From Phycisphaeraceae bacterium (GTDB taxonomy: Bacteria > Planctomycetota > Phycisphaerae > Phycisphaerales > UBA1924), in assembly GCA_007693965.1 (NCBI GenBank), contig RECQ01000054.1, forward strand, positions 1-64,000: 64,000 bases of DNA. Direction: 5' to 3'. Within the stretch, counting starts at the first letter, position 1, and every line of letters starts with the position of its first letter. Made by a program: the position numbers and the translations under genes. Positions 3,875-34,594 of the stretch are shown piece by piece. The notes below the pieces were generated by a model, which saw only the letters and a program-made list of their open reading frames with translations, was not told the origin of the DNA and did no database searches.

Positions 3875-3908
3875 TCCGGACGCGACGACATCAGAACGCA
3901 TGAGACGG

Positions 3909-3942
3909 ATCGGCGGGCCCCTCGGGGCTCGCCGATTCTGTT
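3909..3942 (+). terminator. Probable terminator after the second PEP-CTERM-like gene
   Basis: A 13-bp stem (3909-3921 with 3924-3936, one G-U pair) is followed by the poor T-run TTCTGTT. Its place 35 bp after the stop codon and its likeness to the hairpin at 2882 support the call, although the T-run is weak. Confidence 0.6.
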
Positions 3943-3991
3943 ATTGGGCAATGGGCAATGGGCAATGGGCAATGGGGAATGGGGAATGGGG
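3943..3991. repeat. Heptamer array CAATGGG
   Basis: About seven tandem copies of the heptamer CAATGGG, with GAATGGG variants at the right end. The same heptamer family recurs at 19433, 19571 and 22474-22561. It lies just downstream of the preceding terminator and 19 bp before the double-hairpin element at 4011. Confidence 0.92.
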
Positions 3992-4010
3992 AGGGGGACT
4001 GAGGATGGGC

Positions 4011-4086
4011 GCCGTGGCATAGCGTCTTCGCTTTGCCACGCCGAACTTCCACACGCGTGGCAAGGCCGCGGCGGCCATGCCACGGC
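4011..4086. repeat. Double-hairpin dispersed element, copy A
   Basis: This 76-bp element is bounded by GCCGTGG (4011-4017) and CCACGGC (4080-4086). It contains two hairpins: GTGGCA/TGCCAC with an inner AGCG/CGCT stem (4014-4039), and GTGGCA/TGCCAC with an inner GGCCG/CGGCC stem (4057-4083). The reverse complement of 34456-34534 aligns to it along its whole length, with differences that mostly keep the stems paired. It lies between two convergent genes. It resembles REP/MITE-type non-coding elements; no transposase is present. Confidence 0.85.
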
Positions 4087-4115
4087 ACCCGCACCCTCCC
4101 CACGGCGGAGTGGAT

Positions 4116-15013: not shown

Positions 15014-15046
15014 GGCGCAGTGTCGTATTGGGCTCCGGGGCAATTG

Positions 15047-15203
15047 GGTGCCGGGGCAAGCTTGTTTTTGCTTGCCCCGAGCATGGAATGTCAGCGCCCA
15101 ATCGATAGAAAAGAAAATGCGATGCGCTTCCATTGTGTGGGCCTGGACAATACACACTGCAGTACGTACGCGGGGCAAGCAAAAGGAAGCTTGCCCCGGC
15201 ACC
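15047..15203. mobile_element. MITE-like element with 32-bp terminal inverted repeats
   Basis: The 157-bp element has ends that are inverted copies of each other (15047-15078 and 15172-15203, 30 of 32 positions identical, both beginning GGTGCC). Each end itself folds into a hairpin (GGGGCAAGC with GCTTGCCCC). The 90-bp core is relatively AT-rich and codes for nothing I can recognise. The structure fits a non-autonomous miniature inverted-repeat element. No transposase is present and no second copy is visible in the window. It lies between the PagL-like gene and galE, which converge on it. Confidence 0.72.
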
Positions 15204-15239
15204 CCGACGCCGCCGGGCCCCTTTCACCCCTTCACCTCA

Positions 15240-34361: not shown

Positions 34362-34455
34362 AGAAAGAGTCTCTGGCGATGCGGCGCCTGCTCGGGCTCC
34401 GGGCCGGTGCGCCGATCGTCTAAAGCTGTCCCCGGGCGCCATGATGACTGGGGGT

Positions 34456-34534
34456 GCCGTGGTAGAGCCGTCCGCGGCTCTGCCACGCGCCTGGATATTC
34501 CGCGTGGCAAAGGCGAAGACGCCTTTACCACGGC
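34456..34534. repeat. Double-hairpin dispersed element, copy B (inverted)
   Basis: This 79-bp element is bounded by GCCGTGG (34456-34462) and CCACGGC (34528-34534). Hairpin one is GTGGTAGAGCC with GGCTCTGCCAC (one wobble pair); hairpin two is GTGGCAAAGGCG with CGCCTTTACCAC around an AAGA loop. Read on the minus strand it matches copy A at 4011-4086 throughout, including the inner CGTCTTCGC loop. It lies after the DUF4159 stop and before the next gene's promoter. Confidence 0.85.
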
Positions 34535-34580
34535 GCCCATCGAAAACGCCCGACTTTCAAAAAGGATCCGTATGATTCTG

Positions 34581-34586
34581 TATCCT
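34581..34586 (+). promoter_or_regulatory. Candidate -10 (TATCCT) for membrane protein gene
   Basis: TATCCT lies 8 nt before the ATG at 34595, without a Shine-Dalgarno sequence between. It fits the leaderless TANNNT pattern of this window. Confidence 0.5.
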
Positions 34587-34594
34587 GAACACCC

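Follow-up and report, generated by a model that had tools for sequence, protein, structure and literature searches.

REPIN-type hairpin pairs behind a GGGYGC tag in a Phycisphaeraceae genome, probably mobilised by a RAYT

What are the two double hairpins that recur, in opposite orientation, in the non-coding DNA of a Phycisphaeraceae bacterium? They lie in a 64,000-nucleotide stretch (contig RECQ01000054.1, positions 1 to 64,000), here called the window, where a preliminary description had placed them at 4011-4086 (copy A) and 34456-34534 (copy B). The match is real: in the right orientation A and B align as one family together with four more copies from the genome and a truncated one, they are the only matches in the window to TGCCACG-N(1-30)-CGTGGCA (0.02 expected in window shuffles), and both fold as DNA more strongly than shuffled sequence (z = -5.7 for A, -8.4 for B). 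The description had the place right but the extents slightly too short, as a conserved GGGY precedes GCCGTGG; A spans 4007-4090 and B 34452-34538. Each is an inverted pair of 35-37 nt hairpins, laid out as GGGYGCC-GTGG-hairpin-CCACGC, a 13-nt spacer, and then the inverse. The count of two holds for A and B but overlooked a third element, of a sister type, at 15046-15204. The features are given below with scores from R1, a covariance model of the single hairpin trained on 12 arms, all remaining matches being independent of it.

4007..4041, plus strand: left REP hairpin of copy A (R1 48.1 bits, E 2.9e-10 in the window; in the training set)
4042..4054: spacer of copy A, 13 nt, akin to CCGAACTTCCAGACG, which other copies in the genome have as spacer (alignment A1)
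4055..4090, minus strand: right REP hairpin of copy A, inverted (R1 53.5 bits, E 1.1e-11; in the training set)
15046..15080, plus strand: left REP hairpin of the third element, GGGTGCCGGGGCAAGCTTGTTTTTGCTTGCCCCG (R1 17.7 bits, E 0.023, filters off; outside the training set; alignment A8)
15081..15169: spacer of the third element, about 89 nt, starting GCATGGAA (by alignment)
15170..15204, minus strand: right REP hairpin of the third element, inverted (R1 23.1 bits, E 0.0009)
34425..34590: probable full extent of copy B with outer arms, limits approximate (alignments A5 and A6)
34452..34488, plus strand: REP hairpin of copy B, AGAGCCG type (R1 61.5 bits; in the training set)
34489..34501: spacer of copy B, 13 nt (by alignment)
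34502..34538, minus strand: REP hairpin of copy B, AAAGGCG type, inverted (R1 63.5 bits; in the training set)

The left hairpin of copy A begins with GGGCGCC, the tag plus first stem base, followed by GTGG...CCACGC. Loops and spacers had been described as different between the copies, and their letters are indeed not identical, but the spacers are related: in matching orientation A has CCGAACTTCCACACG, B has CGGAATATCCAGGCG, and most other genome copies have CCGAACTTCCAGACG. Copy B also carries outer arms (left ...CGGGCGCCATGATGACTGG; right, read on the minus strand, ATACGGATCC..TTGAAA..CGGGCG) in common with other copies that have 13-nt spacers (A5, A6). The outer arms of this class (34425-34450 and 34539-34590 in the window; also L006 and L028) are themselves inverted, and given their conservation a complete unit could measure about 165-200 nt; a pattern search for the arms with up to 3 mismatches returned just two sites, both REPIN-linked. 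In the third element, the palindrome of the left hairpin is identical to that of hairpins beside the RAYT gene discussed below (AAGCTTG type), with a compensatory GGGG/CCCC outer stem; a PagL-like gene lies about 33 nt before the element and a GalE-like epimerase gene on its other side. A short tandem GGGCAAT repeat (3945-3993) lies between a terminator-like hairpin and copy A, immediately next to the latter. Rfam RNA families gave no match at gathering score in the window.

Two GC-rich hairpins might resemble each other by chance, short GC-rich inverted repeats being common in GC-rich DNA, and the preliminary description would have settled for this had the genome held no further copies and its relatives no trace of conservation. 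However, the genome-wide covariance search that it proposed, run on the 3,484,422-base (3.48-Mb) draft of 74 contigs, returned 58 hairpins at E<0.01, making up about 40 elements, most of them beyond the window, against no genome match for a reversed control pattern and the 0.02 matches expected in window shuffles. With copies in the genome, and the tag recurring in relatives, we reject chance resemblance, to which we assign a negligible probability. The matches include stem types on which the model was not trained (AAGCTTG, GGCCGG), in the same frame. Close pairs are convergent (plus, then minus) in 17 of 17 cases, to which the element at 15046-15204 adds another, and their spacers fall into classes of 13, 30-31, 47, 84-85, 94 and 104 nt. 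As the preliminary description had proposed, changes in the stems preserve pairing: 96.4% of stem cells are paired, 8 of 13 stem pairs show two-sided changes, and two-sided cells number 62 compared with 22.0 in shuffles (as high in 0 of 500), a strength of covariation that is only approximate because the alignment had been made by fitting sequences of common descent to the model. A smaller, unfitted alignment agrees on stem covariation.

The elements lie mostly between genes. By a simple codon-based gene caller 30 of the 40 are intergenic, in DNA that is about 85% coding; the other 10 fall at the ends of ORFs that seem to have been called from too early a start, and no gene is clearly interrupted. 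Both A (between convergent genes) and B (between tandem genes) follow gene ends, as first described. Divergent gaps hold 1 of the 27 elements with clear context, the one being the RAYT's own, compared with 10 of the 52 adjacent gene pairs in the window. Placement between genes with near-avoidance of divergent (promoter) gaps would also suit host regulatory or structural sites, acting in transcription termination, mRNA 3'-end protection or DNA topology and kept by selection without being mobile; RNA folding is likewise strong, and REPs elsewhere play such roles (PMC8266576, PMC8049555). We consider this reading unlikely, as the elements lack a U-tract, a terminator scan found no intrinsic terminator at any of the three window elements, and a separate terminator-like hairpin (3907-3938) already precedes copy A. 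It also leaves unexplained the paired convergent design, the shared spacers, and the flanks of the RAYT gene.

This gene, for a RAYT or REP-associated HuH/Y1 transposase such as the preliminary description had suggested looking for, is one of five Y1-type matches in the genome. It lies on contig C65, scores 92.4 bits against NF047646 (cut-off 80), and has no second match of its type in the genome; all 29 homologues match NF047646 at E<=0.001. The residues of the HuH and Y---N motifs (H65, H67, Y141 and N145) are invariant in the 29 homologues. The structure predicted for L140, a homologue with 59% identity across the aligned region (pLDDT 94.5), has its best structural match in 4er8, the E. 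coli TnpAREP bound to a REP (Z 16.8, Foldseek E 1.7e-9), followed by IS608 (13.5). Among the residues that contact the guide in E. coli (W94, Q95, E100, H101 and R104), the W and D/R equivalents are conserved as FWxxGGGYDRN; in the C65 protein the Q is replaced by L, and the equivalent of R104 is not conserved. On either side of the gene stand hairpin pairs that carry the GGGTGCC tag, have 84-nt spacers and share the frame of the window hairpins; window-type remnants flank it as well. In relatives, RAYT flanks bear the same tag on different stems.

The hairpins could instead be the non-autonomous ends (MITEs) of some other mobile element, whether of the IS200/IS605 group or a DDE transposon bounded by terminal inverted repeats. 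The extra inverted outer arms of the 13-nt-spacer class fit such an origin, as does the presence of other Y1 genes, among them an IS200 gene (NF033573 76.9, cut-off 55). Yet the palindromes beside all four of the other Y1-type genes differ in sequence from those of the window, whereas the RAYT, whose adjoining hairpins share the window frame, does not qualify as an IS200/IS605 transposase (NF033573 23.6 bits, below the cut-off of 55). We regard MITE ends as very improbable.

One other Y1-type gene, L003 (G000:C25:3770-4078), is flanked by a palindrome, TCGGGGCGGGACGCCCCGG, which occurs at about 37 distinct sites in the genome, none of them in the window, and with which it probably forms a second, separate REP-like system. 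The Y1-type genes L005 (G000:C3:23801-24067) and L002 (G000:C19:9588-9923), the latter with an internal stop, have flanking palindromes of their own (GACGCCGAGGCTGAGTCCTCGAAGCCTCGG and CCAGAGGCTTCAGCCTCTGG, respectively). The genome of a relative, G030, contains several GGGYGCCGTGG-tagged single hairpins (L048, L054, L057, L061, L063) and no RAYT that we could find; these are possibly remnants left after loss of the enzyme, or an assembly gap may hide the gene.

Which part of the hairpin is constant? The preliminary description took GTGG/CCAC as the anchor motif, and in this it was mistaken: neither GCCGTGG nor GTGG can be the tag, because GTGG is paired with CCAC and covaries with it through compensatory change. 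What stays constant is the tag GGGYGC, 5' of a stem that opens with C and is otherwise free to differ. The first seven bases of 59 units read GGGTGCC in 36, GGGCGCC in 19, and otherwise in four, which places GTGC or GCGC before the stem. A tail, [AT]TG[GC]A, follows 21 of the 59 units in this genome and is not general.

We then asked what stands beside RAYT genes elsewhere, gathering homologues by protein similarity and inspecting the adjoining DNA afterwards, at 56 + 80 = 136 loci; one locus (L058) had entered through a hairpin match, yet the protein search recovered it too. Two censuses, which overlap in some genomes, compared the 4-mer that immediately precedes, on the 5' side, hairpins up to 500 nt from the gene with that in farther flanks. 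Among the 56 loci of the first, GTGC was the top 4-mer (29 loci near versus 8 far) and GTGG the second (12 versus 4), with GTAG at 1 versus 1. The second, of 80 named loci from a GTDB-based collection, gave 34 versus 12 for GTGC, 18 versus 4 for GTGG and 0 versus 4 for GTAG. Among the loci tagged with GTGC or GTGG are some from Planctomycetota, Armatimonadota, Acidobacteriota, Zixiibacteriota, Electryoneota and Fibrobacterota; 47 of 133 RAYT loci, roughly a third, have no called tag. The most enriched 7-mers beside RAYTs are GTGCCAC and GGGTGCC, the latter occurring at least twice near 26 loci and in none of the far flanks. Across 262 hairpins selected on the tag alone, which come from 93 locus-tag combinations, conservation starts sharply at GGG, the first stem pair is C-G in all, and the remaining stem is genome-specific. 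These 262 revealed no conserved 3' cleavage motif, the lone strong difference at the first 3' base stemming from the stem extension procedure. Tagged copies of one such stem pattern are scattered through seven other planctomycete genomes, with 4 to 55 matches each and none for the reversed pattern.

We suggest that the sites are elements of the REPIN type, in which a spacer separates two inverted REP-like hairpins, and that they are non-autonomous and mobilised in trans, likely by the C65 RAYT; we put the probability of this at about 85%. On the other side, no transposition, target duplication or empty site came to light, the relatives compared all belonging to other genera. The elements show what marks REPs and REPINs elsewhere, namely a short palindrome in many copies, almost only intergenic, inverted doublets, and a RAYT flanked by repeats of the same frame and sister stems; before the palindrome, where the strict definition places a 5' GT(A/G)G, they carry GTGC or GCGC. 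The preliminary description had offered selection on structure or REP/REPIN-like transposition, and the two checks that it named, the genome-wide search and the look for a RAYT gene, both came out in its favour, transposition itself being a step that we infer. The roughly 40 elements were likely copied by this single 'domesticated' RAYT elsewhere in the genome. Because the intact hairpins beside the gene carry the AAGCTTG stem, we infer its action on the window stem type rather than read it from its flanks; one hybrid pair (C25:15873-16038), which joins an arm of the RAYT type (AAGCTTG) to one of the window type, is consistent with a single enzyme serving both.

By analogy with TnpAREP of E. 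coli, Stenotrophomonas and Marinomonas (PMC8266576), the RAYT would bind the hairpin as single-stranded DNA, the 5' tetranucleotide (GTGC or GCGC here) would act as a guide that chooses the cleavage dinucleotide, and the tyrosine would cut there, after which the hairpin pair would be moved or copied at low frequency. The guide rule measured in those systems (GTAG to CT/CA, GTGG to CC/CA, GTAC to GT/GA; PMC8266576) predicts G|C or G|A for GTGC.

The tag follows the RAYT tree. On this tree, of 133 RAYTs, tag labels cluster, changing 18 times where shuffled labels average 26.7 (0 of 200 shuffles as low), and the tag switches repeatedly between GTGC and GTGG; the fourth guide base appears to alternate between C and G across the wider lineage in Planctomycetota and neighbouring phyla. 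The column that best tracks these switches is Arg28 (R28), which is R in 55 of 56 GTGC-only proteins and in 11 of 30 with any GTGG. Across 13 pairs that contrast in tag, some 7.9 were concordant and 0.06 discordant, for a column picked from all columns; a hold-out set gave an odds ratio of 6.4 (p 0.022), uncorrected for kinship. Arg28 is at the end of the first strand (beta1) and aligns with Arg23 of 4er8, and guide contacts of TnpAREP lie in beta1, around beta4 and at the C-terminus (PMC8266576). As a tag-specificity residue it is a lead only, because it was chosen among all columns and well-supported branches underlie just 4 of the 13 contrasts. A broader proposal is possible but rather doubtful: that a GTGC-tagged REP class, next to the known GTAG and CGTC ones, exists in Planctomycetota and neighbouring phyla, that its guide ending in C shifts the cut from C|T to either G|C or G|A, and that on several occasions the fourth base has changed between C and G in step with Arg28. 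If true, nature would here have recorded how a hairpin nuclease comes to be retargeted. It is still an open question how RAYTs pick the site they cleave, attempts to change it via the GTAG guide having failed in E. coli and Stenotrophomonas (PMC8266576); a large collection of natural loci, in which two tags alternate repeatedly and one residue is a candidate, would allow guide choice to be tested directly. A GTGC class would also escape tools that seek GTAG or GTGG, in phyla where REPs are hardly described.

The published definition of a REP demands a GT(A/G)G tag (PMC3686654). A 2013 survey recognises GTAG and CGTC superfamilies and TIR-flanked RAYTs (PMC3733652), and a 2018 survey searched for GTAG/GTGG and ascribes tags or structures of another kind to classes 2.6 and 3 (PMC6006769); the main texts of the papers examined contain no description of a GTGC tag. 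TIRtrons/TIRYT and TnpAREP subclasses 2.6 and 3 (PMC3733652, PMC6006769) likewise pair RAYT-like genes with non-GTAG repeats or palindromes, some in Acidobacteria and Planctomycetes, but the motifs given for these are GGGGWSAS and CnGA, not GGGTG(C/G); some of their listed repeats may overlap with GTGC elements. The Stenotrophomonas SM1/SM2 REPs (GGTGGGTGCCGACC...GGTCGGCAC; PMC3686654) have the string GGGTGCC beside a RAYT, but there it reads as a GTGG tag with GTGCC within the paired stem, whereas here GTGC is outside the stem. The ends of IS200/IS605 elements (IS608, ISDra2) also present a hairpin with a 5' guide tetranucleotide to a Y1 transposase; here, in contrast, the gene is single-copy with an IS200 score below cut-off, and hairpin pairs are dispersed without it. 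Also close are the REPs/REPINs and RAYTs of the GTAG superfamily in E. coli, Pseudomonas and Stenotrophomonas (PMC3733652, PMC3116915, PMC8266576), which share the short palindrome behind a 5' tag, the intergenic inverted doublets, the single-copy RAYT flanked by repeats of the same kind, and an HuH/Y enzyme of the same fold. They differ from the elements described here in the tag, which in place of GT(A/G)G reads GTGC or GCGC in this genome and GTGC or GTGG across the lineage at large, in the longer conserved GGG lead, and in the C-G first stem pair of all 262 tagged hairpins. RAYT-mobilised REPINs are well known, and we file the GTGC-tagged elements as a variant, not as members of the GTAG family, because they lack the strict GT(A/G)G tag; by analogy, they would work as other REPIN/RAYT systems do.
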